64,000 bases of DNA. Source: Amycolatopsis sp. NBC_01480. Its GTDB lineage: Bacteria; Actinomycetota; Actinomycetes; Mycobacteriales; Pseudonocardiaceae. How positions within the stretch are numbered: position 1 is the first letter of the stretch; every line of letters begins with the position of its first letter. This document shows, one piece after another, positions 294 through 29,731 of this stretch. The DNA is taken from positions 9,734,001 to 9,798,000 of the forward strand of contig NZ_CP109442.1 in the NCBI RefSeq assembly GCF_036227205.1, written 5' to 3'. The position numbers were made by a program, and so were the translations under genes. The notes under the pieces are model-generated. The model had not been told where the DNA came from and ran no database searches. It saw only the letters and a program-made list of their open reading frames with translations.

Positions 294-318
294 ATTCCCG
301 GTAGGAGCGGCATCAAAC
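294..318 (-). promoter_or_regulatory. Putative SigB-type promoter of the ATP-grasp gene
   Basis: On the minus strand GTTT (318-315) is followed after 15 nt by GGGAAT (299-294). This is close to the actinobacterial SigB-like pattern GNNT-N14-16-GGGTAN, with A in place of T at one -10 position. It lies 27 nt upstream of the GTG start. The pattern is seen; the function is inferred from its recurrence in this window. Confidence 0.4.
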
Positions 319-487
319 GGACCATCCGGCGGTACCTGGGGCGCACGAAAGATTTCCGGAACATGACGCGCCAAGGCTGTCCAGCCGTCCGGCGCGGGCG
401 AGGCCAACGACGTCAAGACCAAGATCACCTGACGAATCGCAACCGCCAGGCCAGGGAGCGGAAACAACGGAAACAATCGGTTACCGG

Positions 488-512
488 GCTTCAACCGCAG
501 CCGGCGGGGTAA
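488..512 (+). promoter_or_regulatory. Putative SigB-type promoter of the SRPBCC gene
   Basis: GCTT (488-491) is followed after 15 nt by GGGTAA (507-512), 34 nt before the GTG at 547. A direct repeat of GGAAACAA lies just upstream (460-476). The match fits the loose GNNT-N14-16-GGGTAN pattern found before many genes here. Confidence 0.35.
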
Positions 513-546
513 TCCGGCTGTACCGCCGACCAAAGTGGAGGACACC

Positions 547-993
547 GTGACCGAGGTCAGCCGCGTCATCGACGCGTCGCCGGACGACGTTTTCGCCGTG
601 CTCGCCGACGGCTGGTCCTACGCGGGGTGGGTCGTCGGCAGCTCCCACATCCGCGACGTCGACCAGGACTGGCCCGCCGCCGGCACCCGGATCCGCCACA
701 GTGTGGGCCCCTGGCCGCTGCACATCCAGGATGTTTCGGTGGTGACGGCCGTCGAGCCGGGTGTGTCGCTCACCCTCGAAGCACAGGGCTGGCCGCTCGG
801 CTCCGCGGCGATCGAGCTGACCCTGGTGCCCCAGGGCGCGGGCAAGACGATGGTGCGCATGGCCGAGCACATCGTCGGAGGACCCGGCAAAGTCCTTCCC
901 ACGGCGCTCCAAGCGCTGGTCGTGAAGCCACGCAACCGCGAAGCGCTGGCTCGCTTGGCGGACATCGTGGTCGGGCGACGCACCCGGAAGTAA
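547..993 (+). CDS. SRPBCC/polyketide-cyclase-like family protein
   Basis: This is a 148-residue protein of the START/SRPBCC helix-grip fold, a hydrophobic ligand-binding scaffold. The N-terminus (VSRVIDASPDDVFAVLADG) is typical of this superfamily: a strand followed by the short helix that closes the pocket. The rest alternates strands up to a basic C-terminal helix ending GRRTRK. GTG 547 is chosen because GGAGG at 537-541 is correctly spaced before it; a GTG at 535 overlaps that site. It is a single gene converging on the oxidoreductase gene. The ligand cannot be deduced. Confidence 0.8.
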   Translation: MTEVSRVIDASPDDVFAVLADGWSYAGWVVGSSHIRDVDQDWPAAGTRIRHSVGPWPLHIQDVSVVTAVEPGVSLTLEAQGWPLGSAAIELTLVPQGAGKTMVRMAEHIVGGPGKVLPTALQALVVKPRNREALARLADIVVGRRTRK

Positions 994-1017
994 CGGATAC
1001 CCGGCGGCGCACGCGGG

Positions 1018-2637: not shown

Positions 2638-3714
2638 TCAGGACTGTGACTGGTGGCTCGGACCCACGCGGGCGAGCGAGCGCAACCGGGACACGGCCCC
2701 GTCGCGGCGCGGCGGGGCCAGCGGCGGGCTAGCCCCGCCCGCCCCGGAACGGAGTCCGGCGACCAGTTCGCCCAGAGTGCTGACGGCGTCGTACCGTGGC
2801 TGCCAGCCCAGCGCGGTCCCGGCCGTGGTGATGTCGACCAGTGGCGCGCGGTCGGCCAGGTCGAGCCAGCCCGGGTGCAGGGGCAGGGCACCGGTCCGCC
2901 ACGCGGCGTGCGCGGCGGCGCGGATTACCGGCCGGGGCATCGGAACGCGGCGCCCGCCGAGCGCCGCGGCGAGCGCGTCGGCGTCGAGAACCTCGGCGGC
3001 GGCCAGGTTGACCGCACCGGTGAAGCGGGCATCGAGGATCAGCCGGACGGCCTCGGCGACGTCGGAGGTGTGCACGACCTGTGCCCGCAGGTCCGGCCAC
3101 AGTGGGAGCGGGAGCCGTCGATCACCGACGACGTGCGCGGGCACCATCGGGCCGAGCAGCCAGCGGGCGAACTCCCCCGCCGCCCGGCGGTGCAGGATCG
3201 CGCACGGCCGCAGCCGAGCCACCCGCACCTCGGGGTGACTCGCTTCGAACCGGTTCAGCAGGTGCTCGAGACTCGCTTTGCCACGGCTGTAGGCACTGCT
3301 CTCGATGCCGTCGCACGGCCAATCCTCGGTCACCTTGGCCCAGCGTGGAGCCGGCCCGTAGGCGGCCACCGAGGAGGCGACGACCAGGTGCGGCACGCCG
3401 GCGGCCGCGACCGCCGAGAGCAGGTGCCCGGTGCCGAGGTCGTTCGTCTGCTCCATCGGCGGGTCGTCGCGGGTGGGCGAGATCGCCCACGCCAGGTGGA
3501 CCACCGCGTCGGCCCCCACGACCAGCTCGGCCAGTTCCTGCTCCGCGTGACGCTCACCGAGGTCCAAGGCCCGCCAGCCGACAGCCCCGAGATAAGGCTC
3601 GGCCGTGGTGTCCGGCAACCGGCGTGCCACTCCGACCACGTCGTGCCCCGTTCCGAGAGCGCCGAGCAGCGCCGTTCCGACGTTTCCGGTCGCCCCGGTG
3701 ATGACAATCCGCAC
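2638..3714 (-). CDS. NAD-dependent epimerase/dehydratase (extended SDR)
   Basis: GTG 3714 opens a 358-residue protein starting VRIVITGATGNVG, the TGxxGxxG dinucleotide fold of extended short-chain dehydrogenases. The catalytic YxxxK is present in SAYSRGKAS, preceded by a serine-rich strand (VVASSVAAYG). The family acts on nucleotide sugars or similar substrates; the specific one is unknown. The C-terminus has an Arg/Pro/Ser-rich tail after the fold (about 30 residues). The gene is first in an apparent two-gene unit with the CrtI-like oxidoreductase. A GTTT-N16-GGGTAG promoter-like site lies 9 nt upstream of the start. Confidence 0.85.
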   Translation of the reverse strand: MRIVITGATGNVGTALLGALGTGHDVVGVARRLPDTTAEPYLGAVGWRALDLGERHAEQELAELVVGADAVVHLAWAISPTRDDPPMEQTNDLGTGHLLSAVAAAGVPHLVVASSVAAYGPAPRWAKVTEDWPCDGIESSAYSRGKASLEHLLNRFEASHPEVRVARLRPCAILHRRAAGEFARWLLGPMVPAHVVGDRRLPLPLWPDLRAQVVHTSDVAEAVRLILDARFTGAVNLAAAEVLDADALAAALGGRRVPMPRPVIRAAAHAAWRTGALPLHPGWLDLADRAPLVDITTAGTALGWQPRYDAVSTLGELVAGLRSGAGGASPPLAPPRRDGAVSRLRSLARVGPSHQSQS

Positions 3715-3722
3715 CCCTTCGC

Positions 3723-4656: not shown

Positions 4657-4979
4657 TCCGGCCGGATACCTCATTTCCCGCATCGCGCGCGAGCGGCGCT
4701 GCCCGGCCAGAACCCGTCTCGGTCACTTGGCCGCGAAGCAACTCGCGTCCTGAGTGCAAGAAGAACACCGGTACGGCCCACTGCTGGACCGGTCTCCCGA
4801 CGATAACCTTTCAAGCCGGCGGCCAGCAAGCGTCGGCAGAGTCCGCTAAGGACAGAGTCTTCGACAGTACCGCCCGGGACCCCGCGCTCACGCCATTCCG
4901 CCGGGTCGGGCGGCGAGGGTGTCAACGCGCACGGTGGGGTACCCGGGAACGTCCGATCCCGACGATTCCGGAGGTGCCC
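4657..4979. other. Intergenic region between the DUF2188-like and SDR genes
   Basis: About 320 nt between two divergent genes. Apart from the promoter-like site before the SDR gene (4919-4942) and the possible extra N-terminal codons of the DUF2188-like gene, nothing supportable is visible. Confidence 0.5.
4919..4942 (+). promoter_or_regulatory. Putative SigB-type promoter of the SDR gene
   Basis: GTGT (4919-4922) and GGGTAC (4937-4942) are separated by 14 nt and end 37 nt before the GTG at 4980. This matches GNNT-N14-16-GGGTAC, the SigB-type consensus described for Streptomyces. Confidence 0.5.
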
Positions 4980-5819
4980 GTGTCGCAACCGGCCCAGCAG
5001 CAGACCCCGCCCGGCACTACCGCCGCAATGGAACCGCGGCCCGACCACGGCGAGCAGAGTTATCGCGGCTCCGGGAAGCTGACCGGCAAAGTCGCCCTGA
5101 TCACCGGCGCGGACAGCGGCATCGGCCGGGCGGTGGCCATCGCCTACGCCCGTGAGGGCGCCGACGTCCTGGTCTCCTACCTCGACGAGCACGACGACGC
5201 CGAAGAGACGCGCCGCTGGGTCGCGGACGCCGGACGCAAAGCCGTGGTGATGCCCGGCGACGTCGCCGACCCGGCCCACTGCCGTGCCCTGGTCGAGCGC
5301 ACGGTGGACGAACTCGGCCGCATCGACATCCTGGTCAACAACGCCGCTTACCAGATGAGCCACGAAACGCTCGAAGAAGTCAGCGACGAGGAGTGGGACC
5401 ACACCCTCGCGACCAACCTCAGCGCGTTCTTCCACCTCACCAAGGCCGCCCTGCCACACCTGCGGGCCGGCGCGTCGATCATCGGCAGCTCGTCGGTGAA
5501 CTCCGACAACCCCAGCCCGCAGCTGCTGCCCTACGACGTCACCAAGGCCGGCGTCGCGAATATGACCGCGGCGCTGGCCCAGCTACTGGGGCCGAGGGGC
5601 ATCCGCGCGAACAGCGTCGCGCCCGGTCCGATCTGGACCCCGCTGATCCCGTCGACCATGCCGGAAGACGCGGTGGAGTCCTTCGGCCGGCAGGTGCCGC
5701 TGGGCCGCCCCGGGCAACCCGCGGAACTCGCGCCTGTCTACGTTCTGCTCGCCTCCGACGAGGCGAGCTACGTCTCCGGCGCCCGCGTCGCGGTCACTGG
5801 CGGCAAGCCGATCCTGTAG
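4980..5819 (+). CDS. SDR family oxidoreductase (general-stress/glucose-dehydrogenase-like)
   Basis: A 279-residue short-chain dehydrogenase. A Gln/Pro-rich leader of about 35 residues precedes KVALITGADSGIGRAVA, the TGxxxGIG cofactor loop. LVNNAAYQ, IIGSSSVNS and the catalytic YxxxK in LPYDVTKAG follow, then NSVAPGPIWTPLIP. The leader and overall shape match the bacterial stress-type SDRs related to B. subtilis YdaD/YhdF. GTG 4980 has GGAGG 6-10 nt upstream. Cytosolic NAD(P)-dependent oxidoreduction is expected; the substrate is unknown. The SigB-type site upstream fits a stress role. Confidence 0.85.
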   Translation: MSQPAQQQTPPGTTAAMEPRPDHGEQSYRGSGKLTGKVALITGADSGIGRAVAIAYAREGADVLVSYLDEHDDAEETRRWVADAGRKAVVMPGDVADPAHCRALVERTVDELGRIDILVNNAAYQMSHETLEEVSDEEWDHTLATNLSAFFHLTKAALPHLRAGASIIGSSSVNSDNPSPQLLPYDVTKAGVANMTAALAQLLGPRGIRANSVAPGPIWTPLIPSTMPEDAVESFGRQVPLGRPGQPAELAPVYVLLASDEASYVSGARVAVTGGKPIL

Positions 5820-6674: not shown

Positions 6675-6699
6675 TTACCCGCCGTCAGCCGGTCAAAAC
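6675..6699 (-). promoter_or_regulatory. Putative SigB-type promoter of the 6596/DUF3072 operon
   Basis: On the minus strand GTTT (6699-6696), a 15-nt spacer and GGGTAA (6680-6675) lie about 79 nt upstream of the ATG. This is a near-exact match to the pattern seen elsewhere in the window. Confidence 0.5.
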
Positions 6700-6713: not shown

Positions 6714-8691
6714 TCACTCGTTCGTATTGCGGCCGGCTGGTGGCTGCGAGAGCAACGGAATTCGCCCGCCGGCGAGCACGGTTTCGACCTGCCGCTCGGA
6801 AAGGCGATGGCACAGCCGGTACTCTTCGTCTTTCGTGGCGTTGTGGACAGTCAATTCCCGTCCATCGGCCAGTTTCTGCCGAAGGCCATCGAGCACGAGG
6901 GTGTCGTCCGGATCGATGCGCGAGTGGTCGTCGGGGTCGGCGAACTCCAGCGCGAGGATCCCGAAGTTCGCCAGGTTCTGCCAGTGGATCCGGGCGAACG
7001 ACTTGGCGATCACCGCGCGCAGGCCGAGGTAGCGGGGCGTGATGGCCGCGTGCTCACGGGACGAGCCCTGCCCGTAATTGTCACCGGCGACCACCACGTG
7101 ACCCGTGCCATCGGCGATCTCTTTCGCCCGGGCAGGGTAGTCCGCGTCGACCCGGGTGAAAGTGAAGTCCGCCAGTTTCGGGATATTCGAACGGAACGGC
7201 AGCGCGCGAGCTCCCGCCGGGGAGATCTCGTCGGTGGACACGTCGTCGCCGAGCTTGAGCAGCACTGGGGCTTCGATCCGGTCCGGCAGCTCCGGGAACT
7301 CAGGCAGGGCCGAGATGTTCGGCCCCTTCACCAACTCCTCGCGGGCCGCGTCGTCCGGATCCGGGGGCGGCACCAGCATGGCGGTGTTCACTGAGGACCG
7401 TTCCGGGGGTTTCACCTCAGGCGGCTCCAGGCCGAGGTCGCCCGCCAGCTGCCGCGGATCGGTGATCCTCCCGGTTAGCGCCGCCGCGGCGGCGGTTTCG
7501 GGCGAGCACAACCAGACCGAGTCCTCCGGTGTACCCGACCGGCCCGGGAAGTTGCGGGGAAAGGTGCGAAGGGAATTGTGGCCCGACGCCGGTGCCTGGC
7601 CCATGCCGATGCAGCCCATACACCCGGCCTGGTGGATGCGCGCGCCGGCCGTGATCAGGTCGGTCAGCGCGCCCGCCTTGGTCAGATCGGTCAGGATCTG
7701 CCGCGACGACGGATTGACGTCGAAGCTGACACCATCCGAGGCCTGCCTGCCCCGCACCATCGCCGCAGCCACGGCGAAGTCCCGGAAACCAGGGTTGGCG
7801 GACGAGCCGATCACGACCTGGCCGACCGGCGTCCCGGCCACCTCCCGCACCGGCACCACATTGCCCGGGGAGGACGGCTTCGCGATCAGCGGCTCCAGCC
7901 GGCCGAGGTCGATTTCGTCGAGGCGGTCGTACTCGGCGCCGGGATCCGCTTTCAGCTCGGTGAAGTAGTGCTCGCGGCCCTCGGCCCGCAGGAAGGCGCG
8001 CACGGCGTCGTCGGCGGGGAACACGGTGGTGGTCGCTCCCAGTTCGGCCCCCATGTTGGCGATCACGTGCCGGTCCATCGCGGTCAGCGAGGCGAGGCCC
8101 GGCCCGTGGTACTCGATGACCCGGTTGAGCCCGCCCTTCACGCCGTGGCGGCGCAGCATCTCCAGGACCACGTCCTTGGCCGACACCCACGGCGGCAGCT
8201 CCCCGGTGAGGCGGACTCCCCAGATCTCCGGCATCCGCAGGTACAGCGGCTCCCCCGCGATCGCGAGCGCCACCTCGAGGCCGCCGACCCCGATCGCCAG
8301 CATGCCCAGCGAGCCGGCCGCGCACGTGTGCGAGTCCGAACCGGCCATCGACCGGCCGGGACGCCCGAAGCGCTGCATGTGGGTGGGGTTGCGAGACACC
8401 GTTGCCCGCCTTGGAGAACCACAGCCCGAAGCGCCGGCACGCCGAACGCAGGAACTCGTGGTCCTCGGCGTTCTTCTCGTCGGACTGCAGCAGGTTGTGA
8501 TCCACGTACTGCACACTGACCTCGGTGCGGGCCCGGTCCAGGCCGAGGGCCTCCAGCTCCTGCATGACCAGCGTCCCGGTCGCGTCCTGGGTCAACGTCT
8601 GGTCGACCCGCAGGGCGATCTCCGAACCCGCGACCGGTTCTCCGGACTCCAGATGCGCCGAGATCAGCTTCCGCGCCACCGAGGATCCCAT
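6714..8691 (-). pseudogene. Aconitate hydratase, frameshifted
   Basis: The gene would encode a 658-residue aconitase (citrate-isocitrate isomerisation, TCA cycle). From ATG 8691 (behind GGAGG) the frame runs MGSSVARKLISAHLESG to FSKAGNGVS; homology then continues one frame over with PTHMQRFGRPGRSMAGSDSHTC. The Fe-S cysteine motif AGCMGCIGMGQAP and the swivel-domain motif GDNYGQGSSREHA are present. The span of 1978 nt is one base over a multiple of three, consistent with a single inserted T in the TT at 8389-8390. It is either a recent mutation or a sequencing error. The length fits the shorter aconitase class (about 650 residues), not the 900-residue AcnA type. It has its own promoter-like site, 97 nt after the malic enzyme gene. 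Confidence 0.85.
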
Positions 8692-8788: not shown

Positions 8789-9916
8789 TCAGCCGCCCTT
8801 CGCCGCGCCGGCGACCGCCTCGGCGACCGCCGGCACCAGAGCCTCGTCGAAGACACTGGGCACGATGTGCTCCCGATCGAGATCGCCGCCCACCACTCCG
8901 GCCAGGGCGCGCGCGGCCGCGAGCAGCATGCGGGTCGTCACCCGGACGGCACCGGAGTCGAGCAGGCCCCGGAACATCCCGGGGAACACCAGCACGTTGT
9001 TGATCTGGTTGGCCATATCGCTGCGACCGGTCGCGACGACCTCAGCGTGCTCGCGCGCGGCCTCCGGGTCGACCTCGGGATCCGGGTTCGCCAGCCCGAA
9101 GACGATCGCCCGGTCGGCCATCCGCCCGATGTCCTCCTCGTCGAGCAAGCCGCCGGCGCTCACGCCGATGAAGACGTCCGCCTCGCGCACAACGTCTCGG
9201 AGGCTGCCCTGAGCCGCCCCACCGCGGTTGGTGTGTTCCGCCAGCCAAAGCTTCTCCCCAGTCAGGTCGCGCCCTCCGTGCAGGGCGCCACGACGGTCGC
9301 AGACCACGAGCCGGTCGGCGCTGAAGCCCGCGTTCAGCAGGAGCCGGGTGACGGCCACCCCGGCTGCCCCGGCGCCGGAGACCACCACCGAGGTGCCCGC
9401 GGGCTCGCGACCGGTCAGTTCGAGCGCATTGTGCAAGGCGGCCAGCACAGCCACCGCGGTCCCATGCTGGTCGTCGTGGAACACGGGCACCTCGAGTTCG
9501 TCGTGCAGCCGGCGCTCCACGGTGAAGCACCGGGGCGCGGCGATGTCTTCGAGGTTGATCGCGCCGAACGACGTAGCCAGGTCCTTGACGGTGCGGACCA
9601 GATCGTCCGGCTCACGGCTGACTGGGCAGATCGGCCAGGCGTCGACGTCGGCGAAGCGTTTGAGCAGCGCCGCCTTGCCCTCCATCACCGGCAGTGCCGC
9701 CGCCGGGCCCTGGTCGCCCAGCCCCAGCAGGGCCGAACCGTCGGAAACAATCGCGACGGAGTTGGCTTTCACCGTCTCCCGCGCGAGCACCGACGGGTCA
9801 TCGGCGACCCGCTTCGCCAGCTCGGCGACCCCGGGCGTGTACTGCTCGGCCAAATCGTCGGCGTCCTCCAGCCGCACCCGGGCGGTGACCTGTACCTTTC
9901 CGCAGCTTCGAGTCAT
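8789..9916 (-). CDS. NAD-dependent malic enzyme
   Basis: A 375-residue short-form bacterial malic enzyme, which decarboxylates malate to pyruvate with reduction of NAD(P). Family features in order: YTPGVAELAKRVADDPS near residue 26, the catalytic Lys region in VMEGKAALLKRFADVDAWP, NLEDIAAPRCF with the metal-binding Glu/Asp, VFHDDQHGTAVAVLAALHNA near residue 145, and the Rossmann motif VVSGAGAAGVAV. The C-terminus has FGLANPDPEV and NQINNVLVFPGMFRG. ATG 9916 lies only 10 nt from a promoter-like -10, so the message may be nearly leaderless. It lies upstream of aconitase on the same strand, a pairing of TCA-cycle functions. Confidence 0.92.
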   Translation of the reverse strand: MTRSCGKVQVTARVRLEDADDLAEQYTPGVAELAKRVADDPSVLARETVKANSVAIVSDGSALLGLGDQGPAAALPVMEGKAALLKRFADVDAWPICPVSREPDDLVRTVKDLATSFGAINLEDIAAPRCFTVERRLHDELEVPVFHDDQHGTAVAVLAALHNALELTGREPAGTSVVVSGAGAAGVAVTRLLLNAGFSADRLVVCDRRGALHGGRDLTGEKLWLAEHTNRGGAAQGSLRDVVREADVFIGVSAGGLLDEEDIGRMADRAIVFGLANPDPEVDPEAAREHAEVVATGRSDMANQINNVLVFPGMFRGLLDSGAVRVTTRMLLAAARALAGVVGGDLDREHIVPSVFDEALVPAVAEAVAGAAKGG

Positions 9917-10112: not shown

Positions 10113-10934
10113 TCAGTCGAGGACCAGCGCCGCGTCCGGCTCGGTCACCCGGAAGCTGAAGCTCTCTTCCAGGTAGAGCGTGAGCGTCTCGGCGTCGTGC
10201 TGGCTGTAGCCGACCGAGAGGTCCTGGCCGAGTTCCAGGACGAAGTCCCCGCCGGCCAGGCTGAGCACGACGGCGCCGGTGATGCCCGGGGTGCGTTTGA
10301 CCCGGCCGCCGCCGAGCGCGCGGCGCAGGTGGTCCAGCACGAGCAGGCCGCCGTGCTCGGTGCTCTCCACGATGGCGGTGTGGCCCTCCGGGTTGATCGC
10401 CAGCGCGTAGGGTCCGTCGATCCCGTTGCAGCGCAACGTGTTCACCGCGTTCGCCACCAGGTGCGGATACCGTTCCGGGTCGATGCCCAGCGTTCCGTGC
10501 TCGTACGGGCTGGCGTCGATGATCCCGCCGATTCCGGCCTCCGGCCAGCCGTGGAACACCGCCCGGTTCTCGATGAGCCCTACCTGGGCGGCCGCCTGGT
10601 CCAGGTCGTCGAGTTCCAGGTCGTCGGCTCCGCGTTCGGCGTCCTCCAGCTCGGCGCGCTCGACGGTGAACGGCACGCGCACCTCGACCAGCGGCAGGAC
10701 CCGGCGCTGCCGGACAGCGGTCTCGCGCTCCCGGGCACTTTCCGGAGCGTCGATGCGACGGGTCCGGCCGAGCGAGGTAGCCGAGTGCGCCCAGCCTTGC
10801 GGCCCTTCGACGTCGACCACCTTGCGGGCCGCGAGGTGCGTAACCAGCCGTTCCCGCGCTTCGTCGTCGATCTGGTGCCAGCCTTCGGCCGGGATCGGCG
10901 CGAGTTCGCGCATGAGGTGGTTCATCGTGTTCAC
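10113..10934 (-). CDS. Family 1 encapsulin nanocompartment shell protein
   Basis: A 273-residue homologue of linocin M18/encapsulin shell proteins, which have the HK97 capsid fold and self-assemble into a protein compartment. The start region MNHLMRELAPIPAEGWHQIDDEA matches the family N-terminus. The middle has VPFTVERAELEDAERGADD and ENRAVFHGWPEAGIGGI, and the C-terminus GDFVLELGQDLSVGYSQHDAETLTLYLEESFSFRV, the shell E-loop/A-domain ending usual for the family. GTG 10934 overlaps the cargo gene stop (GTGA); ATG 10925 fits family length better. It lies directly downstream of a hemerythrin cargo gene with which it is translationally coupled. Confidence 0.95.
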   Translation of the reverse strand: MNTMNHLMRELAPIPAEGWHQIDDEARERLVTHLAARKVVDVEGPQGWAHSATSLGRTRRIDAPESARERETAVRQRRVLPLVEVRVPFTVERAELEDAERGADDLELDDLDQAAAQVGLIENRAVFHGWPEAGIGGIIDASPYEHGTLGIDPERYPHLVANAVNTLRCNGIDGPYALAINPEGHTAIVESTEHGGLLVLDHLRRALGGGRVKRTPGITGAVVLSLAGGDFVLELGQDLSVGYSQHDAETLTLYLEESFSFRVTEPDAALVLD

Positions 10935-11497
10935 CGCTCTTTCAGTCCGCCGATGCCGAGGGAACCGTCTTGCGGGGTGTCCTTGCCGGCCTTTTCCTCC
11001 TGCTTGGCGACGTAGCGCTCAGGGTCGACGTCGCCGGTGTCGATGCCGTGGCCGTCCTCGTGCTCGGCCTTGAACGCGAGGAACCTGCGGCCGAGCTCTT
11101 CGCGCAGCCCCGGGCCGGCGTGCCGGCGGAAGTCGGCGAGCGCGTCGTCCTCCTCTTCGGCCATGTGCTCGCTGTTGGCCGTGCGGGCCTGGCGTACCGC
11201 GGCCTGCCAGGCCGCGCTGCCGGCCGGGTGCCGCCTGGTTTCAGCGACCGCGTCGCGGATGTCGTTGTGGTCGCCGACGGCGTCGAGTGTCTCGTCCTCC
11301 GCGTCGGCGCCGCGCTGGATCAGCTCGGGGTAGAAGACGGCTTCCTCGGCCGCGGCGTGCAGGTCCAGCAGTGTCGCGAGGGGCGCCCACGCCCGCGCCA
11401 GCTCGTCCGGGGAGTCCAGGTCGTCCAGCTCGGCGAAGGCCCGGCGGAACCGATCGTGGTCGTCGAGGATCAGGCTGGTGATGTCGGTCATGGCCAT
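10931..11497 (-). CDS. Hemerythrin-domain encapsulin cargo protein
   Basis: A 188-residue protein. Residues 1-150 form a hemerythrin-like four-helix bundle with di-iron ligands of the expected kind: DDHDRFRRAF, LDLHAAAEEAVFYPEL, GDHNDIRDAV and SEHMAEEEDDAL. A flexible charged linker follows, then the C-terminal DGSLGIGGLKER. That tail is nearly identical to the known encapsulin targeting peptide (consensus SLGIGSLK-like). The gene therefore encodes cargo for the shell gene that overlaps it by 4 nt. Starts at 11497 (ATG GCC ATG) or 11491 are both possible; neither has a strong ribosome binding site. A role in iron/oxygen or nitrosative stress handling inside the compartment is inferred from studied hemerythrin-encapsulins. 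Confidence 0.93.
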   Translation of the reverse strand: MAMTDITSLILDDHDRFRRAFAELDDLDSPDELARAWAPLATLLDLHAAAEEAVFYPELIQRGADAEDETLDAVGDHNDIRDAVAETRRHPAGSAAWQAAVRQARTANSEHMAEEEDDALADFRRHAGPGLREELGRRFLAFKAEHEDGHGIDTGDVDPERYVAKQEEKAGKDTPQDGSLGIGGLKER

Positions 11498-11664
11498 CGA
11501 AGGTAGGCCGCCGGTCAGTGCTTCGCTTGTTGGGCCACCGTCGGGCGCTCGCCCGTTCCCGTGCGAAGACGGCACCGCCCGGGCATGATGACCTGGGTTG
11601 AGCAGCCAGCCCTGGACCTTTCCTGCCCACGGCGTGAGCCGGGCGGCCGAGCACGGGAACTGTG

Positions 11665-12036
11665 ATGAGCGAGCTGACTGATCCTGCGACCGACCCACCG
11701 GGGACGCTCCGCATCGGACGGGCCGACCGGCCGCCGGTGGCCGTGCTGGCGGTGAGCGGCGACGTCGACACGTGCACCGCCCCGCGCGTGACGGCGGCAG
11801 TCGCCGAGGTCCTCACCGAGGCGCCGCCGGTGCTGGTGCTCGATCTGACCGCGGTGGAGTTCCTGGCCTCGCCGGGCTTGACCGCGCTGCTGACCATCCG
11901 GCGGGGCATGCCGGCCGGCACCGAGCTGCGGATCGTCGCGTCCGGACGCGCGACCCTGCGCCCGATCCAGCTCACCGGGCTGGAGCCGGGCCTGCCGCTC
12001 TACCGCACGCTGGAGCAGGCCCTGGCCGCGCCGTGA
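11665..12036 (+). CDS. STAS-domain anti-anti-sigma factor
   Basis: The 123-residue protein is a single STAS domain (SpoIIAA/RsbV type), preceded by about 20 polar residues. It has VAVLAVSGDVDTCTAPRVT near residue 30, then LVLDLTAVEFLASPGLTALL, where Ser of the ASPG motif corresponds to the regulatory phosphoserine. Such proteins bind an anti-sigma kinase to release a sigma factor. The gene converges with the PP2C phosphatase gene (stop codons 1 nt apart), and an anti-sigma kinase gene lies 1.4 kb away, so all three partner-switch classes are adjacent. Confidence 0.9.
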   Translation: MSELTDPATDPPGTLRIGRADRPPVAVLAVSGDVDTCTAPRVTAAVAEVLTEAPPVLVLDLTAVEFLASPGLTALLTIRRGMPAGTELRIVASGRATLRPIQLTGLEPGLPLYRTLEQALAAP

Positions 12037-12037
12037 A

Positions 12038-13249
12038 TCACGGCCCGGCCGGGCGCAGGAGCACCACCAGCGCGACGTCGTCCGGCGAGGGCCGGGCGCC
12101 CACCATCGCGGCCATGACGCGCGAACAGGCCCGCTCCGGGTCCTCGACCCGGAGCAGCTCGGTGAGCTGCCGCATCCCCTCGTCGACCGGCCGGTCCCGG
12201 CGCTCGACGAGGCCGTCGGTGTAGAACGCAGCGACGGTGCCCGGCGCCAGCGGCACCATGGTGGTGCGCCGGCGGGGCGTCCCGAGGCTCAGGCCGATCG
12301 GCGGGTCGGCCGGAGCGGTCACGAGCCCGGCCGGGCGGCCCGCCGAGACCACGACCGGCGGCAGGTGCCCGGCCAGTGACAGCGCCAGCTGCTCGTGCCC
12401 GGCGTCGAGCACGCCGTAGGCCACCGTCGCCATCACGCCGTGTTCGAAATGATTGGCCTTGCGGTCCAGCTTGCCGAGCACCTCGGCCGGGTCGTCGCAG
12501 TCCAGGGCATAGGCGCGCAGGGCGCTGCGGAGGCGGCCCATGATCACCGCCGCGTCCAGGCCGTGGCCCGACACGTCGCCCATCACGATGCCGAGCCGGT
12601 CTCCGGGCAGCCGGAAGAGGTCGTACCAGTCCCCGCCCAGTCCCGCGCCGGCACCCGGTACGTAGCGGGCGGCCGCGCGGAGGCCGTCGATCTCGGGCAG
12701 CTTGCCCGGCAGCAGGCTGCGCTGCAGCGCGATGGTCGCTGCCTGGTTCTGCCGCAGGGTCTCGGATCGCAGGACGGCCGCCAGGTGGTCGGCGAGCAAC
12801 CGGACGACCTCGATGTCGGTGGTGGTGAACCGGCGCTGGTCCACGGACCCGACGTGCAGGACACCGACCAGCTCGGCGCCGGCGAGCATCGGCACGCCGA
12901 GCATCGTGCGCAGGCCGCGTTCCCACAGCAGGGAGTTCACTACCGTCGTCTCGTCGACCCGGTCGATGACGACCGGCTCGCGGCGCGCGGCCACAGTGCC
13001 GGCGAACCCGGCGCCCACCGACACCCGCACACCCTGGTAGACCTCCTCCTCGAGACCGGCCGCGGCGATGGCGACCAGGTGCTGCGAGGGAGGTTCGTGC
13101 CGCAGCACCGTCGCCGTGTCGACCCCGAGAACCGCACACGCCCGGGCGAGCGTCTCCTCGATTCCGCCGGCCCGCCCGGCCGGCCCCTCGTAGCCGGTGA
13201 TCTCGCTCAGCCGGGTGCGGAACTCCGGCTCCGGCACATCGTGCGTCAT
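12038..13249 (-). CDS. GAF-PP2C (SpoIIE-type) serine phosphatase
   Basis: A 403-residue protein. An N-terminal GAF sensor domain (about residues 25-175: VGAGFAGTVAARREPVVI, LRTMLGVPMLAGAELVGVLHVGS) is followed by a SpoIIE/RsbU-type PP2C domain from about residue 185. The metal-binding motifs GGDWYDLF, VMGDVSGHGLDAA and FYTDGLVERRD and the terminal SPDDVALVVL are all present, so it should be catalytically competent. It would dephosphorylate an anti-anti-sigma factor such as the neighbouring STAS protein. ATG 13249 is the best start (MTHDVPEPEF). Confidence 0.9.
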   Translation of the reverse strand: MTHDVPEPEFRTRLSEITGYEGPAGRAGGIEETLARACAVLGVDTATVLRHEPPSQHLVAIAAAGLEEEVYQGVRVSVGAGFAGTVAARREPVVIDRVDETTVVNSLLWERGLRTMLGVPMLAGAELVGVLHVGSVDQRRFTTTDIEVVRLLADHLAAVLRSETLRQNQAATIALQRSLLPGKLPEIDGLRAAARYVPGAGAGLGGDWYDLFRLPGDRLGIVMGDVSGHGLDAAVIMGRLRSALRAYALDCDDPAEVLGKLDRKANHFEHGVMATVAYGVLDAGHEQLALSLAGHLPPVVVSAGRPAGLVTAPADPPIGLSLGTPRRRTTMVPLAPGTVAAFYTDGLVERRDRPVDEGMRQLTELLRVEDPERACSRVMAAMVGARPSPDDVALVVLLRPAGP

Positions 13250-13414
13250 GGACAGACCGTAGCCGGGCTGCCCCGACCCGCGACGGAGCAGGTCGCCCGC
13301 CGTATGGCGTCTCCGCCGGGCTCGGCAGTACCGTCGGGCCGCCGGGCGGGAACCGGTTCCCGATGCGACGATCGGTCCCGGGGCGCCCGGGCCGGGATCT
13401 GCCGGCTCTCCCAG

Positions 13415-13439
13415 GTGTGTGGTCGGCCGATCCGGGTAT
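13415..13439 (+). promoter_or_regulatory. Putative SigB-type promoter of the anti-sigma kinase gene
   Basis: GTGT (13415-13418), a 15-nt spacer and GGGTAT (13434-13439) lie upstream of the GTG at 13482. If real, the kinase gene is controlled by the same sigma class it probably restrains, a common autoregulatory loop. Confidence 0.5.
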
Positions 13440-13481
13440 GCGGAAGCATCCGTGCAGCGCCAGTGGAGAAAGGGGCCGAAG

Positions 13482-13925
13482 GTGGCAGCTCCCGGCCCAG
13501 GGGCGGACGAAGCGCCCTGGATCATGGACCTGCGGGGTACCGAGCCCGCGCACCTCGCCCGGATCCGCGGCTGGGCGAGATCATCGCTGACCCACCTGGC
13601 GCCCGACCACCTCGAGGACGTCCTGATGGTGACCGAAGAGCTCGCCACCAACGCCTACGTGCACACCGACGGACCCAGCTGGGTGCGCCTGACCGCCCTG
13701 TCACTGCCGTGCCTGGTGGTGGTCGAGGTCGACGATTCCGCGCGCCTGCGCCCCCAGGTCCGCCGGCCGGACGAGACGAGCCTGCGCGGCCGCGGCATGC
13801 AGCTCGTCGACAGCCTCTCCGACACCTGGGGCGTCCACGAAAACCAGGTCGGGAAGACAGTGTGGGCGCGGCTCGGCTGCGGCATCCCGGAGCGGCCCAC
13901 CTGCGGCGCTCCACCGAATTCCTGA
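13482..13925 (+). CDS. RsbW/SpoIIAB-like anti-sigma factor kinase (HATPase_c_2)
   Basis: From GTG 13482 (AAAGG upstream) the 147-residue protein contains a GHKL ATPase fold: LEDVLMVTEELATNAYVHTD with the N-box Glu/Asn, VVVEVDDSARLRPQV with the G1-type Asp, and SLRGRGMQLVDSLSDTWGV, the G2-type glycine loop. These are the hallmarks of anti-sigma kinases that sequester a sigma factor and phosphorylate an anti-anti-sigma factor. An upstream GTG at 13452 would add ten basic residues. No sigma gene is present in the window. Confidence 0.85.
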   Translation: MAAPGPGADEAPWIMDLRGTEPAHLARIRGWARSSLTHLAPDHLEDVLMVTEELATNAYVHTDGPSWVRLTALSLPCLVVVEVDDSARLRPQVRRPDETSLRGRGMQLVDSLSDTWGVHENQVGKTVWARLGCGIPERPTCGAPPNS

Positions 13926-14297
13926 GGGCTTCGCGCCACCGGCGGTAAGGACTCGGTGTTTTCCACGCCGCCGGCGGGTACCCGGCCGACCATGGGCGCC
14001 GAGAAGCTGGTCGTGATCGGAAGCGGGGCGACCGGGAAGGGCTTCCTGCGCGGGGAGACGGCCTCGGGCCAGATCTGCCTGCTGGACGAGAAGACCCGCC
14101 GGCATCAAGACATCGGGCTCGGCCTCGGCCACCCCATGGTCGAGCTGAGCCCCGGACGTGTCCGGGCGGCCCCGGCCCGTTTCCCGTGACGGCAGCAAGT
14201 TCATCGTCTGGTACGAGCGCGGCCGGCGCGCTGACCCACGAGGCACTGACCTGATTCGCGAACGCTGTCCACTGCCGCGGCACACCGAGGAGGCCCC
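13926..14297. other. 372-nt stretch with a SigB-type site and an orphan reading frame
   Basis: The stretch contains the promoter-like element at 13958-13981. An open frame at 13992-14189 (65 codons, MGAEKLVVIGSGATGKG onward) has an N-terminus reminiscent of an FAD/NAD-binding VVIGSGATG motif, but its remainder matches nothing I know. It may be a remnant of a GMC-type oxidoreductase or chance coding. Nothing else is evident up to the ribosome binding site GAGGAGG before 14298. Confidence 0.4.
13958..13981 (+). promoter_or_regulatory. Putative SigB-type promoter, consensus match
   Basis: GTTT (13958-13961), 14 nt and GGGTAC (13976-13981). This is the best-matching site of the set. It points at the acyl-CoA dehydrogenase-like operon beginning at 14298, with the small orphan frame at 13992 in between. 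Confidence 0.5.
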
Positions 14298-15257
14298 ATG
14301 ACCCTGCTGGCGGACACCCCACCGAAACCGTTGCCGCTGCCCCGCACCTCGGAGACGCTCGGCGCGGAGCTGCGGCGGATGCTCGTGGCCGGCGCGCTCG
14401 ACCTGCCGCTGACCGGCCGGGGCGCGCTGCTGCGACGGTGGCGCGAGCTGGCCGGCTTCGGCCGCCGCGATCTGGCTCTCGCCCGGCTCGCCGAAGGCCA
14501 CACCGACGCGGTCGCGATCCTGGCCGAAGCCGGGCAGGCGCCCACATCCCTGTCCCTCTACGGTGTCTGGGCCTCGAAGTCGACCGGGACCGGCGCGAGA
14601 TTCCACAATGGACGGCTGAGCGGGACCGTCCGGTTCTGTTCCGGCCTCACCGTCCTCGACCGCGCCCTCGTCGCGGCCGGCGACCAGCTGGCCGAGGTGG
14701 ACCTGTCCGCGGCCGGGGTGGAACGCCATCCGGACGCATGGCAAGCGGTCGGCATGGACGCCTCCGACAGCGGGGACGTGGTCTTCGACGACGTCCCCGT
14801 CGAACGGCTGGTCGGGCCGCCCGGCTGGTACCTCGCGCGGCGCGGGTTCGTCCTCGGCGGCACCGGGGTGGCCGCGGTCTGGCTCGGCGGCGCCGCCGGA
14901 GTGCTCGACTCGGTGGGCGAAACCCTGCGGGTCAAGGCGGACGGCCATCAGCTCGCGCACTTCGGCGCCCTCCACGCGGCGCTGCGCGGATCCGAAGCAC
15001 TGCTGGCTTCCGCCGCCGCGACGATCGAGCAGGCCCCCGGCCCGGGCTTGCTGAACGACACCTGCCGGGCGAGCGTCGAACGGACCGCCCGCGACGTGGT
15101 CGATCTCGCGCCGCGCATCACCGGCGCCGGGCCGCTGTGCCGCGACCGGCGATTCGCTCAGCAGCTGGCCGATCTCCAGGTGTTCATCCGGCAGCACCAC
15201 GGCGAGCGGGATCTCGCCGCGCTGGGCCGGGCCGTGCTCGGCGAGGCCGGCGCATGA
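14298..15257 (+). CDS. Acyl-CoA dehydrogenase-like protein
   Basis: A 319-residue shortened acyl-CoA-dehydrogenase-fold protein. It has the middle beta-domain pattern (GVWASKSTGTGARF, LSGTVRFCSGLTVLDRALV, MDASDSGDVVFDDVPV) and a helical C-terminal half. It lacks the N-terminal helical length of full-size enzymes (about 380 residues) and no obvious catalytic Glu is assignable. ATG 14298 follows GAGGAGG. Its stop overlaps the next start (ATGA), so it is the first gene of a coupled three-gene operon with a PIG-L/methyltransferase fusion and a glycosyltransferase. That set recurs in diverse bacteria without a known product. Confidence 0.8.
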   Translation: MTLLADTPPKPLPLPRTSETLGAELRRMLVAGALDLPLTGRGALLRRWRELAGFGRRDLALARLAEGHTDAVAILAEAGQAPTSLSLYGVWASKSTGTGARFHNGRLSGTVRFCSGLTVLDRALVAAGDQLAEVDLSAAGVERHPDAWQAVGMDASDSGDVVFDDVPVERLVGPPGWYLARRGFVLGGTGVAAVWLGGAAGVLDSVGETLRVKADGHQLAHFGALHAALRGSEALLASAAATIEQAPGPGLLNDTCRASVERTARDVVDLAPRITGAGPLCRDRRFAQQLADLQVFIRQHHGERDLAALGRAVLGEAGA

Positions 15258-16519: not shown

Positions 16520-17208
16520 TCACCGCGGTCGCCGTCGTCCTGCCCGCACGCGACGAAGCCCCCTCGATTCCCGGCTGCCTGCACGCGATCCGGCGTTCGC
16601 TGCGGCGGCTGCCGGTGTCGGTCGAGCGGACCGTCGTCCTGGTCGCCGACCGGTGCACCGACGACACCGCCGACCGAGCCCGGTCCTCGGCCGAGGTGGT
16701 CGTCAGCCACGCGCCACTGACCATCGGCGAGCTCCGCGATCTGGGCTGCCGCACCGCGCTTTCACGCCTGACCGGGCATCGGGCATCGGAAGTGCTGCTG
16801 CTCAACACCGACGCGGACAGTGAAGTGGACCAGCACTGGGCAGCCCGGCACCTGGCCCGCGCCCAGCACGGCGGCCACGCCACGACCGGCCCGGCCCACC
16901 TCATCGGCCCGCCGCCAGGCGGCCCCGGCGCCGCTGCGCGCTACCGGAAACTGGTCGAAACAGCAGACCGCGAGGCCGGCAACGTCTACGGAGCCAACCT
17001 CGCGGTCCGCGCCGACGCCTACACCGCCGTCGGCGGATTCGGCCGCATCGCCACCGGCGAAGACCATTCCCTGTGGCGCCGTCTCGAAAACGCCGGATAC
17101 CGGCTGGCACAGGAGCCCGGCGCCCTGGTCCGCACCAGCGCACGACTCGACGGGCGGGCACCCGGCGGATTGTCGGCGCTGCTGCGCACGCTCGCCTCAG
17201 GACGGTAA
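16516..17208 (+). CDS. Family 2 glycosyltransferase
   Basis: A 230-residue GT-A type glycosyltransferase starting at GTG 16516, overlapping the previous stop (GTGA). It begins VITAVAVVLPARDEAPSIPG, then has RTVVLVADRCTDDTADRA for nucleotide-sugar binding, NTDADSEVDQHW as the DxD-type metal motif and GGFGRIATGEDHSLWRRL, the family's ED acceptor-site motif. No membrane segment is visible, so it acts in the cytosol or at the membrane surface. Last gene of the three-gene operon, it ends 10 nt before the convergent P450 gene. Confidence 0.9.
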   Translation: MITAVAVVLPARDEAPSIPGCLHAIRRSLRRLPVSVERTVVLVADRCTDDTADRARSSAEVVVSHAPLTIGELRDLGCRTALSRLTGHRASEVLLLNTDADSEVDQHWAARHLARAQHGGHATTGPAHLIGPPPGGPGAAARYRKLVETADREAGNVYGANLAVRADAYTAVGGFGRIATGEDHSLWRRLENAGYRLAQEPGALVRTSARLDGRAPGGLSALLRTLASGR

Positions 17209-18632: not shown

Positions 18633-18657
18633 GTTTGCCCGCGCGTTCCCCGGGCAC
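18633..18657 (+). promoter_or_regulatory. Weak SigB-type promoter-like site before the Zn-alcohol dehydrogenase
   Basis: GTTT (18633-18636), 15 nt, then GGGCAC (18652-18657), one mismatch from GGGTAC; 36 nt before ATG 18694. Confidence 0.25.
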
Positions 18658-18693
18658 CCGCCCCACAAGACGAGCCGAGCGGAGAGGATGGCC

Positions 18694-19884
18694 ATGAAGG
18701 CAGTGACCTGGCACGGCAAGCGCGACGTCCGCGTCGACACGGTGCCGGACCCGAAGATCGAGGAGCCCACCGACGCCGTCGTGCGGATCACGTCGACCGG
18801 GATCTGCGGATCCGACCTGCACCTGTACGAGGTGCTGGGCGCGTTCATGACCGAGGGCGACATCCTCGGGCACGAACCCATGGGTGTCGTCGAAGAAGTC
18901 GGCGCCGGCGTCACCGGCCTGAAGTCGGGCGACCGCGTGGTGGTGCCGTTCAACATCTCCTGCGGCCACTGCTACATGTGCGGCCACGGCCTGCAGTCGC
19001 AATGCGAGACGACGCAGGTCACCGACCAGGGTAAGGGCGCGGCGCTGCTCGGGTACACCAAGCTGTACGGGCAGGTACCGGGCGGGCAGGCCGAGTACCT
19101 GCGGGTCCCGCAGGCGCAGTACGGCCCGATCAAGGTCCCGGACGGCCCGCCGGACGAGCGGTTCGTCTACCTGTCCGACGTCGTGCCCACGGCGTGGCAG
19201 GCCGTCGAGTACGCCGAGATCCCCCAGGGCGGGTCCGTCGTGCTGTTCGGGCTCGGGCCGATCGGGCAGATGTCCGCCCGGATCGCGCGGCACCGCGGCG
19301 CGGGCCAGGTGATCGGGGTCGACCTGGTGCCGGAACGGCTCGCGCGGGCCCGGTCGCACGGCGCCACCGTGGTGGACACCCGCGACCACCGGCGCATCGG
19401 CGACGCGATCCGCGACCTCACCGCCGGGCGCGGCGCGGACTCGGTGATCGACGCGGTCGGCATGGAGGCGCACGGCGCGCCGATCGGCAAGCTGGCGCAC
19501 GACCTGGTGGGCCTGCTGCCCCAGCAGGTGGGCGCGAAGATCACCGAGAAAGCGGGCGTCGACCGGCTCACCGTGCTCTACGCCGCGATCGACAGCGTCC
19601 GCCGCGGGGGCACGATCTCGCTGTCCGGCGTCTACGGCGGGATGGTCGACCCGATGCCGATGATGGACCTGTTCGACAAGCAGATCCGCCTCCACATGGG
19701 ACAGGCCAACGTGCGCCGCTGGATCGATGACATCATGCCCGTCCTCACCGCCGACGGGGATCCGCTGGGCGTCGAGGGGTTCGCCACGCACAAACTGCCA
19801 CTCGACGACGCGCCGCGCGCCTACGACATTTTCCAGAAGAAGCTCGAAGGGGCGCAGAAAATCCTGCTGCAGCCCGCGACCTGA
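18694..19884 (+). CDS. Zinc-dependent alcohol/formaldehyde-dehydrogenase-like MDR protein
   Basis: A 396-residue medium-chain dehydrogenase. The catalytic zinc site is visible as GICGSDLHLY and GHEPMGVVEEVG, the structural zinc as CGHCYMCGHGLQSQC, and the Rossmann motif as VVLFGLGPIGQMSARIA near residue 190. It resembles glutathione-independent formaldehyde dehydrogenase-like proteins, including the long insert near residue 265. ATG 18694 is preferred over ATG 18688 because GGAGAGG (18681-18687) is correctly spaced only for the former. It is followed by a DUF2795-like gene after 16 nt, probably one transcript. Confidence 0.9.
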   Translation: MKAVTWHGKRDVRVDTVPDPKIEEPTDAVVRITSTGICGSDLHLYEVLGAFMTEGDILGHEPMGVVEEVGAGVTGLKSGDRVVVPFNISCGHCYMCGHGLQSQCETTQVTDQGKGAALLGYTKLYGQVPGGQAEYLRVPQAQYGPIKVPDGPPDERFVYLSDVVPTAWQAVEYAEIPQGGSVVLFGLGPIGQMSARIARHRGAGQVIGVDLVPERLARARSHGATVVDTRDHRRIGDAIRDLTAGRGADSVIDAVGMEAHGAPIGKLAHDLVGLLPQQVGAKITEKAGVDRLTVLYAAIDSVRRGGTISLSGVYGGMVDPMPMMDLFDKQIRLHMGQANVRRWIDDIMPVLTADGDPLGVEGFATHKLPLDDAPRAYDIFQKKLEGAQKILLQPAT

Positions 19885-28332: not shown

Positions 28333-28357
28333 GTACCCATGGACACTGCGGACACAC
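28333..28357 (-). promoter_or_regulatory. Putative SigB-type promoter of the CBS gene
   Basis: On the minus strand GTGT (28357-28354), 15 nt and GGGTAC (28338-28333), 31 nt before ATG 28301. Confidence 0.5.
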
Positions 28358-28456
28358 GCTCAGACCAGTTCGCCTTATTCGCAGGGACTTCGGTCACCGC
28401 CGAGGGAAGTCACCGCGTATCGGACGGCGGGGCCACCCTGCTTACCGCCGCCACCA

Positions 28457-28642
28457 ATGAACGCCCGGCTCCTTCTCGATCCGCAGAGTGCCGCCCTGCC
28501 CTGCGAAAACTGCGGCTACACCGCGCTGCACGTCGCGCGGCTCGTCGGCGATGACGGCGCCGCCATCGGCCAGACGATGGTGTGCACCGCTTGCCACCGC
28601 CAGCGCCAGGACGACTCCTCGGCCGACGGCCGGATCCGCTGA
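28457..28642 (+). CDS. Small zinc-ribbon-like protein
   Basis: A 61-residue frame with two CxxC pairs, PCENCGYTALHVARLVG and VCTACHRQRQ, 30 residues apart. That spacing could bind one zinc ion. It has no recognisable ribosome binding site before ATG 28457 and no family I can name. It is kept because the paired cysteines are unlikely in random GC-rich translation. Confidence 0.4.
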   Translation: MNARLLLDPQSAALPCENCGYTALHVARLVGDDGAAIGQTMVCTACHRQRQDDSSADGRIR

Positions 28643-28699
28643 TACCGCAGCGCCCGGTGCCGCAATGGGATGCGGGCCGAATCAGCTCCGCGCGCAGGC

Positions 28700-28936
28700 T
28701 CAGCGGGGCAAGCGGTGATAGCCGACGGGATGATCGAGGCCGCGGTCCAGGAACACCTCGTTGAGTGCCTGGGCGATCATGTTGTGCTCGTGGTCGTCCG
28801 GCCGGAGCACGCCGAGCGCGTAAGCCTCGACTTCCAGCTCCTCCGCGACCCCGCCGATCGCGACGTATTCCGCCCATAGCTCGAAGGGGCTCAGCCCGGA
28901 GTCCCGATAGCCTTCGTACAAGCCTAGTTCAGGCAT
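28700..28936 (-). CDS. Hypothetical protein next to the ANTAR gene
   Basis: A 78-residue acidic protein starting MPELGLYEGYRDSGLSPFELW, with VEAYALGVLRPDDHEHNMIAQALNEVF. It is not recognised. ATG 28936 overlaps the end of the GAF-ANTAR gene (stop 28929-28931), so it is probably translated with it. It has no signal peptide or membrane segment. Confidence 0.6.
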   Translation of the reverse strand: MPELGLYEGYRDSGLSPFELWAEYVAIGGVAEELEVEAYALGVLRPDDHEHNMIAQALNEVFLDRGLDHPVGYHRLPR

Positions 28937-29662
28937 CGGAGTCCCTTCCGAGCACCTCACGCGCCGCCGTCGCCATGGTGACGCGTTGGCGGGCAGCTGT
29001 GATCGACAGTTTCCGCACAGCTTCTTCCACGGTGGTTCCTTCCCGCTCGGCCAGCACCGCGGCGGCACTCTCGAGCACGGCCCGCCGAGCCAGCGCGGCT
29101 TCGAGCCGGGCATGAGGGCGGGCCGCCCCGGCCGGACGACCGCGGCGCAGTGCGGCCACGGTGCGGCCGAACAGATCGAGTCTCGCCTCCGCCAGTCCCC
29201 TTCGAACGCGGTGGGACCGGCGGCGTAATAGTTGGGCCCGGCCTGGCCGACATGGCCCACGAGCGGGATCGACAGCACCGAATGAACTTGGCTGCCCTCG
29301 GCCACGTCACCGAAGGCAGCGGCCGCGTCCGCCAGGTCCACGACCAACGTCCGCCGCCCTTCACGGGCCGCGTCCACGCAAGGACCGCGATCGGCCGTGT
29401 ACTGACTCTCGTCCAGACTCGCGGCAGTACGGTCGCTCGCGGCGAGTGTGCGGAAACACCGGCTGTCCCAAGCTGTCAAGCTGACCGACAACACCCCCGG
29501 AACGGCGTCGGGAACCGCTTCGATCACAACCCGCACGAGCTGCCCCCGCTCGGCCGGCGCCGCGCCGCGGTCTGCCGCCTTCAGCGCCGCGGCCAAGTCG
29601 GGACCGGCGTCCACGGCGGGCCCTGCCTCGGCCGGTCCGCACTCGGGCTGCCGGTATCCCAT
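28929..29662 (-). pseudogene. GAF-ANTAR regulator, frameshifted
   Basis: ATG 29662 follows GGAGGAG. The first frame codes a GAF-like sensor (TADRGPCVDAAREGRRTLVV, SQVHSVLSIPLVGHV, AFEGDW). The homologous continuation EARLDLFGRTVAALRRGRPAG and the ANTAR RNA-binding domain (LEAALARRAVLESAAAVLAE, VEEAVRKLSITAARQR) lie one frame over. The 734-nt span lacks one base (around 29183-29188). The corrected product of 244 residues would be an antitermination regulator typical of actinobacteria. Sequencing error is possible. Confidence 0.78.
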
Positions 29663-29706
29663 AACGCTCCTCCGTATTCGCCGCCGGCAATGGCGCTATG
29701 CCGGTC

Positions 29707-29731
29707 CTACCCGTTCGAGTGCCGAGTAAAC
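29707..29731 (-). promoter_or_regulatory. Putative SigB-type promoter of the GAF-ANTAR gene
   Basis: On the minus strand GTTT (29731-29728), 15 nt and GGGTAG (29712-29707), 44 nt before ATG 29662. Confidence 0.5.

Follow-up and report, generated by a model that had tools for sequence, protein, structure and literature searches.

The first 30 kb of a 64-kb stretch of an Amycolatopsis genome (two contigs, 10.11 Mb in total) contain many promoter-like sites upstream of genes, and this region is very probably a dense cluster within a general-stress regulon of the SigF/SigB type that spans the genome and whose sigma factor is encoded elsewhere. The whole 64-kb stretch, hereafter the window, covers bases 9,734,001-9,798,000 of a 10.07-Mb contig, and its positions 1-30000 are called the island. 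Such a regulon is of a known type; what we describe is a new instance in Amycolatopsis, which reaches well beyond the island. In the mechanism that we propose, RNA polymerase carrying a sigma factor of the SigF/SigB family, encoded outside the island, would read the island promoters. Single genes and short operons would each carry their own promoter, made of a G-T-rich -35 box, a spacer of 12-16 nt and a -10 box GGGTA or a near variant, and would be induced under stress. These data provide, for an antibiotic-producing genus, a SigF/SigB-type regulon tested at the sequence level. We found no paper on an Amycolatopsis regulon in a genus-specific literature search that was narrow and does not establish absence from print.

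Sites were located with two tools. The strict pattern GNNT-N14-17-GGGTA was controlled by dinucleotide shuffles of positions 1-30000 (n = 200) and by 400 kb of background from the same genome. A SigB-family matrix was built from the 24 Streptomyces coelicolor promoters of Table 2 in PMC8346170, and its background scan covered 1,180 kb of that same genome. As this matrix was made from proven promoters of another genus, it is not fitted to the DNA of the window. A preliminary description of the window had proposed that this pattern, or one mismatch of it, recurs throughout the first 30 kb, and had noticed no comparable sites in the less closely searched remainder; both observations held. There were 13 distinct strict sites in 1-30000 and 3 in 30001-64000, for a mean of 3.6 in shuffled island DNA (sd 1.8, max 8) and 50 sites in the 400 kb of background, i.e., 1.25 per 10 kb (Poisson probability of at least 13 sites with 3.75 expected, 1.5e-4). 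The matrix scan against background, which the same description had called for, gave 8 sites of at least 14 bits in the island, none in the other 34 kb and 20 in the background (Poisson, 7e-8). At a threshold of at least 12 bits, the corresponding numbers were 14, 2 and 126 (7e-6). The box was also permuted under the same -35 rule. Compared with GGGTA (13 in the island v 3 in the other 34 kb), most of the 19 other boxes were far less lopsided, the exceptions being GGATG (3 v 13) and TGGGA (7 v 1).

The strict sites of the island also differ from those of the background in their placement. Based on automatic gene calls, which were made with our own codon-usage script and overlook several genes, none of the 13 island sites lay in coding sequence, compared to 30 of 50 background sites, and 7 of 13 were located upstream of a called start, compared to 7 of 50. 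In our hand-made gene list, the site at 17220 falls in the final bases of the P450 gene, the site at 29708 inside an opposing longest open reading frame (ORF), and the site at 28334 inside the longest ORF of the CBS-domain gene. No gene was found facing the sites at 998 and 17220.

Gene starts were then considered by scoring the heads of gene units for a site of at least 12 bits within 150 nt upstream. With blind gene calls, 7 of 18 island unit heads had such a site vs 25 of 722 in the background (Fisher, 3e-6). Outside the island, the remaining part of the window had a site at 1 of 25 heads, the left flank at 2 of 79 (a count that omits the 10 kb adjoining the window) and the right flank at 5 of 144. 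With curated starts, the island count rose to 11 of 22; these start codons were picked partly with the sites in view, and the count used an mrpE start at 20249, later settled as 20223. The predicted promoters are the following.

294..318, minus strand: SigF/SigB-type promoter GTTTGA-N13-GGGAAT, 16.6 bits, 26 nt before the start at 267 of a gene that runs left out of the window
488..512, plus strand: promoter GCTTCA-N13-GGGTAA of the SRPBCC gene (547-993), 13.8 bits
3723..3748, minus strand: promoter GTTTCC-N14-GGGTAG of the epimerase gene (2638-3714), 14.5 bits, GGGTA to GTG 9 nt
4919..4942, plus strand: promoter GTGTCA-N12-GGGTAC of the SDR gene (4980-5819), 12.1 bits
6675..6699, minus strand: promoter-like site GTTTTG-N13-GGGTAA, 15.6 bits
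8741..8766, minus strand: promoter GTGTGC-N14-GGGTAC of the aconitase gene (ATG 8691), 11.6 bits
9926..9951, minus strand: promoter GTTCAG-N14-GGGTAT of the malic enzyme gene (8789-9916), 14.5 bits, GGGTA to ATG 10 nt
13415..13439, plus strand: promoter GTGTGT-N13-GGGTAT of the RsbW-type ATPase gene, 12.4 bits
13958..13981, plus strand: promoter GTTTTC-N12-GGGTAC, 13.7 bits, GGGTA to ATG 13992 11 nt, ahead of an oxidoreductase remnant and then an operon (14298-17208)
18633..18657, plus strand: promoter GTTTGC-N13-GGGCAC of the alcohol dehydrogenase gene (18688-19884), 12.6 bits
20188..20213, plus strand: promoter GTTTGC-N14-GGGAAC of mrpE (Mrp antiporter operon), 14.1 bits, GGGAA to ATG 20223 10 nt
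28333..28357, minus strand: promoter-like site GTGTGT-N13-GGGTAC of the CBS-domain gene (ATG 28298; CBS domain found), 10.7 bits
29707..29731, minus strand: promoter GTTTAC-N13-GGGTAG of the GAF-like gene (28700-29662), 15.7 bits

Most target genes named in the preliminary description are thus retained. The sites of the so-called ATP-grasp, SRPBCC, epimerase, SDR, malic enzyme, kinase, 14.3-kb operon and GAF genes all reach at least 12.1 bits; those of the aconitase and CBS-domain genes are weaker, the former being backed by its orthologues. The target at 6596/DUF3072 could not be established, and four minus-strand ORFs tried near the site at 6675 gave no Pfam match. Two labels found no backing in Pfam: the gene starting at 267, read as ATP-grasp, gave no Pfam match in the two pieces tried, and the supposed GAF-ANTAR gene gave only a sub-threshold GAF match. 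Also, the sites of the alcohol dehydrogenase (18657) and of the Mrp antiporter (20213) come in addition to that list; the MNHE match of the mrpE protein was below the Pfam cut-off. The matrix found no good site at the encapsulin-hemerythrin, STAS, SpoIIE, DUF6098, P450 and amine oxidase unit heads; the amine oxidase gene lies close behind the epimerase gene. The encapsulin-hemerythrin unit was rejected as a target, as its best site has 3.9 bits and no clear common box was seen upstream in the relatives inspected.

A pile-up by chance is one rival explanation, with a loose consensus in GC-rich DNA and a first half that had been searched harder than the second. The consensus with one mismatch is indeed very permissive, as the background already yields 9-16 matrix sites per 10 kb at 8-9 bits, and the phosphoketolase site of the preliminary description (GGATAC, 10.7 bits) is of that kind and was rejected: 79 of 722 background heads reach 10 bits. 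However, the strict and high-scoring sites far outnumber those in shuffled and background DNA, and for each of four genes 18 or 19 orthologues retain the boxes. For the strong sites, counts and footprints refute this explanation, and as an account of the island we regard it as scarcely credible.

These orthologue footprints are the strongest evidence that the predicted promoters are real, and they extend across the genus. The counts refer to the best-scoring loci (19 of the 26 other genomes with a match for aconitase, 19 of 45 for the epimerase and 19 of 48 for SRPBCC). Upstream of the epimerase, GTTT-N15/16-GGGTA-N10-GTG was present in 19 of 19 orthologue loci. GGGTA was found in all 19 SRPBCC upstream regions, and within 60 nt of the start in all 19 aconitase orthologues, at a distance of 10-11 nt in 11 of them, at least 20 nt in seven and 6 nt in one (starts were placed by a fixed rule, and that of the last, L192, may be wrong). 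All 18 close orthologues of the SDR gene had GGGTA or GGGAA at one and the same place in the alignment; this count leaves out 6 of the 24 loci besides the window's own (L136-L141, 54-61% identity), of which four had neither box in the upstream stretch inspected. Smaller samples agree: all 6 malic enzyme orthologues have GGGTA at 10 nt from the start, GGGTA is present upstream of mrpE in 2 of 2 relatives, the alcohol dehydrogenase has GGGAA 10 nt before ATG in 4 of 4 relatives vs GGGCAC in the window, the promoter at 13958..13981 (13.98 kb) is kept in A. saalfeldensis, and GTTTACTC and GGGTA are kept at the GAF gene in the single relative found (1 of 79 other genomes of the genus). Both boxes at fixed spacing weigh more than GGGTA alone. 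A GNNT -35 box stands 13-17 nt before the -10 box in 18 of 18 SDR, 19 of 19 SRPBCC and 18 of 19 aconitase orthologues, compared to 53 of 267 GGGTA in the 400 kb of background. Housekeeping malic paralogues were tried as a negative control and discarded: their presumed upstream regions are coding, so that 0 of 10 with GGGTA is uninformative.

Two further features were seen at these loci. Many SRPBCC orthologues (L225-L243) have an inverted repeat GGCATACCC...GGGTATGCC across the -10 box, which perhaps reflects divergent promoters or an operator. The aconitase frame (6714-8691) is broken near 8394, with about 99 N-terminal residues in one frame and the rest in another, and the orthologues have open frames of at least 649 aa in 19 loci; the break is either a sequencing error or decay.

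The sites are not confined to the island. Genome-wide, GTTT-N14-16-GGGTA has 50 matches vs 22 for the reversed control, of which 4 are copies of one repeated 25-mer and 5 lie in 32 kb, from 9,731,754 to 9,763,708, the first of them to the left of the window. Further clusters were seen at 77-82 kb, 6.858-6.863 Mb, 7.93-7.95 Mb and around 10.007 Mb, all places inspected because of their matches. The gene neighbourhood is also variable among relatives. In genome G005, close orthologues of the malic enzyme (80%) and the epimerase (74%) are 1.3 Mb apart on one contig and that of the SDR gene (86%) is on another. G081 and G095 have SDR, epimerase and SRPBCC relatives of lower identity (51-65%) within 23 and 7 kb, respectively. 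Selection seems to keep the promoter of each gene and not the neighbourhood. Around the malic enzyme/encapsulin locus, 6 of 7 stretches from relatives contain 2.5-4.3 sites of at least 12 bits per 10 kb. The closest relatives of the window's encapsulin in our search were from Amycolatopsis saalfeldensis (95% identity), A. nivea (90%) and A. circi (89%).

Sigma region 2 gave 69 matches in the genome and none within the window. Two proteins, encoded at 9.069 and 3.620 Mb, exceeded the SigBFG cut-off (TIGR02980; 2 of 15 matches), and each of their genes is directly behind a frame read as RsbW-like. Pfam HATPase_c_2 scored 34.9 bits on the 9.07-Mb frame (cut-off 27.4) and 20.1 bits, below the cut-off, on the 3.62-Mb frame. 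Upstream of the 9.07-Mb frame stands GTGTCA-N14-GGGTAA, its GGGTA 10 nt away from ATG, which suggests self-activation. We infer that either of these two sigma factors may read the island promoters; the RsbW-like protein whose frame directly precedes the sigma gene would sequester it, and partner switching would release it. The window itself encodes a partner-switch set without a sigma gene.

11662..12036, plus strand: STAS anti-sigma antagonist (RsbV-like), PF01740, TIGR00377 over cut-off, best site 8.8 bits
12038..13651, minus strand: GAF and SpoIIE-type phosphatase (RsbU-like), longest ORF, PF07228 1e-42, GAF_2, no good site at the two starts tried
13419..13925, plus strand: HATPase_c_2 protein (RsbW-type anti-sigma kinase), longest ORF, PF13581 over cut-off

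The translation of the last ORF contains EELATNA...GRGMQLV, which we take to be an RsbW-type kinase motif. These three gene products could feed the partner switch and act on the SigBFG sigma factors. The preliminary description had placed the sigma-control module itself inside the regulon. This stands for the ATPase gene, the only one of the three with a site of at least 12 bits, and not for the STAS and SpoIIE genes; the sigma genes themselves map to 3.62 and 9.07 Mb. A segment of 6.3 kb (10869-17196) that includes the hemerythrin, STAS, SpoIIE and ATPase genes, the oxidoreductase remnant and the operon behind it has a 99% identical second copy at 8,041,876-8,048,203, in opposite orientation. 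The remnant (ORF 13992-14297) resembles part of a Pyr_redox_2 oxidoreductase, of which A. saalfeldensis L081 has the complete form (392 aa); the promoter of the remnant is nevertheless kept.

One could also imagine a self-contained stress island, in which the STAS/SpoIIE/ATPase module controls the island genes only. The module sits amid its would-be targets, its ATPase gene has a site of its own, and the malic enzyme/encapsulin stretches of relatives are mostly site-rich. We nevertheless judge this version very improbable, given the absence of a sigma gene from the window, the similar promoters in other clusters, the near-identical copy of the module at 8.04 Mb and the scattering of the malic enzyme, SDR and epimerase orthologues in G005. 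The existence of SigB/SigF-type promoters at stress-family genes, as first proposed, is for its part well supported by an independent matrix, the orthologue footprints and the two SigBFG genes.

The position of the boxes relative to start codons deserves separate discussion. In 4 of the 11 curated heads with a good site (epimerase, malic enzyme, 13.99-kb gene and mrpE), 9-11 nt separate the end of the box from the start codon, and leaderless mRNAs are predicted for these genes; in the other seven, the distance is 18-85 nt. The fixed 10-nt spacing in all 19 epimerase orthologues likewise suggests leaderless translation. The pattern GTTT-N14-16-GGGTA-N9-11-RTG had 339 matches in 24 Amycolatopsis genomes, the window's own included, and its reversed form 30; each of the 24 genomes showed an excess. 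In 16 genomes of other families the numbers were 62 vs 9, five genomes having none. A sample-wide test for a preferred distance of 9-11 nt between ATG and a GGGTA that has a -35 box gave 7 hits for 76 sites; it is suggestive at most and was set aside. Among 37 sites whose -35 box is strong, 9 have CCGG, perhaps a further element, right after GGGTAN, vs 15 of 820 sites with no -35 box; two of the nine are probably copies of one duplicated site. The leaderless arrangement is not new in kind. Transcription and translation start at the same position in the sigF-dependent sspA of S. coelicolor, by S1 mapping (PMC4282423), and for Mycobacterium smegmatis 24% of transcripts are reported as leaderless (PMC6448022), while a list of 88 SigF boxes places 14 at a distance of 8-11 nt from the start codon (PMC4694148). 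More speculatively, the Amycolatopsis stress regulon may consist of portable cassettes, GTTT-N15-GGGTA(N-CCGG)-N10-start codon, with the promoter fused to the start, many stress genes being leaderless and the cassette travelling with genes between islands. The aconitase orthologues, in which the box is retained while the leader comes and goes, may be cited for this idea, which we consider possible though doubtful. If true, it would link the stress response to ribosomes favouring leaderless messages. In any case, leaderless translation of Amycolatopsis general-stress genes becomes a directly testable question.

Several observations weigh against reading the island as a cluster of a SigF/SigB regulon. 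Half or more of the island unit heads are without a good site, and the "island-wide stress regulon" of the preliminary description is therefore reduced to a dense cluster among others. Among 59 background regions of 20 kb, one reaches 9 sites of at least 12 bits (12 in the best 20 kb of the island), and the 7 strict sites of a 10-kb bin at 10.004 Mb equal those of the best island bin; the island is thus not unique. The A. saalfeldensis stretch around encapsulin has only 0.48 sites per 10 kb, and in the window's own genome the excess of the leaderless pattern is modest (11 v 4). The one gene examined outside the island, at 49178-50110, whose product gave no Pfam match, keeps GGGTA in 18 of 19 orthologues without a GTTT -35 box. 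Its upstream region (50110-50188) contains a longer conserved block, GGGTAATTCGGCCGTG-like, in 18 of 19 orthologues, which may be another promoter class or an operator. This gene holds the only non-coding strict site in the part of the window beyond the island and had been considered as a negative control; with its GGGTA conserved, it is not a clean one. Also, when 241 starts of adjacent genes in the orthologue loci were inspected, 61 had GGGTA within 90 nt. Conserved GGGTA alone is thus no proof of SigF, and such sites reach beyond the island.

In another explanation, the GGGTA boxes are recognised by a different group-3 or extracytoplasmic function (ECF) sigma factor, or serve a repressor or activator as operators. 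The genome has 69 sigma region-2 matches, the SRPBCC box is within an inverted repeat in many orthologues, and the 50110 block extends without GTTT. However, in all 19 orthologue loci of the epimerase, GTTT and GGGTA are separated by 15 or 16 nt and GGGTA stands 10 nt before the start, which is the geometry of a promoter, and the matrix that detected the sites derives from SigB-family promoters. This explanation is therefore unlikely, and recognition by a SigF/SigB-family sigma factor appears the more probable one.

Beyond the island, the segment 30843-35206 has a lower GC content and contains an IS-type integrase and a serine recombinase, the end of which overlaps with a tRNA-Leu (CAA); it may be an integrated element that borders the island on the right. 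At 37601-39383, an alpha/beta hydrolase gene is apparently split by a DDE transposase (38363-39022).

The closest known counterpart is the SigF regulon of M. smegmatis, which shares with the Amycolatopsis regulon GTTT-N14-19-GGGTA-type promoters, many genes with their own site and clustering (MSMEG_1758-1804) (PMC4694148; PMC7693655). The gene types are also similar, namely aconitase, hemerythrin, P450 and dehydrogenases. A sigF mutant of M. smegmatis is reported to lose expression of aconitase, hemerythrins, P450 and RsbW with such boxes (PMC4694148). In both organisms an RsbW gene is under the same promoter type (rsbW3 in M. smegmatis), and a paralogue of RsbW is itself in the SigF regulon there (PMC7693655). 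Unlike in M. smegmatis, where sigF is inside the cluster and a sigF mutant provides the proof, both Amycolatopsis sigma genes lie elsewhere and the regulon is predicted from sequence. The SigB-family regulons of S. coelicolor involve nine paralogous sigma factors (PMC8346170), compared to two over the SigBFG cut-off in Amycolatopsis. The two systems are close enough for a matrix of 24 S. coelicolor promoters to locate the island, and they differ in the CCGG that often follows GGGTAN in Amycolatopsis. Finally, as in S. coelicolor sspA (PMC4282423), a SigF-type promoter is set against the start codon; sspA is one sporulation gene, whereas several Amycolatopsis genes are predicted to have this geometry, which is conserved in the genus.

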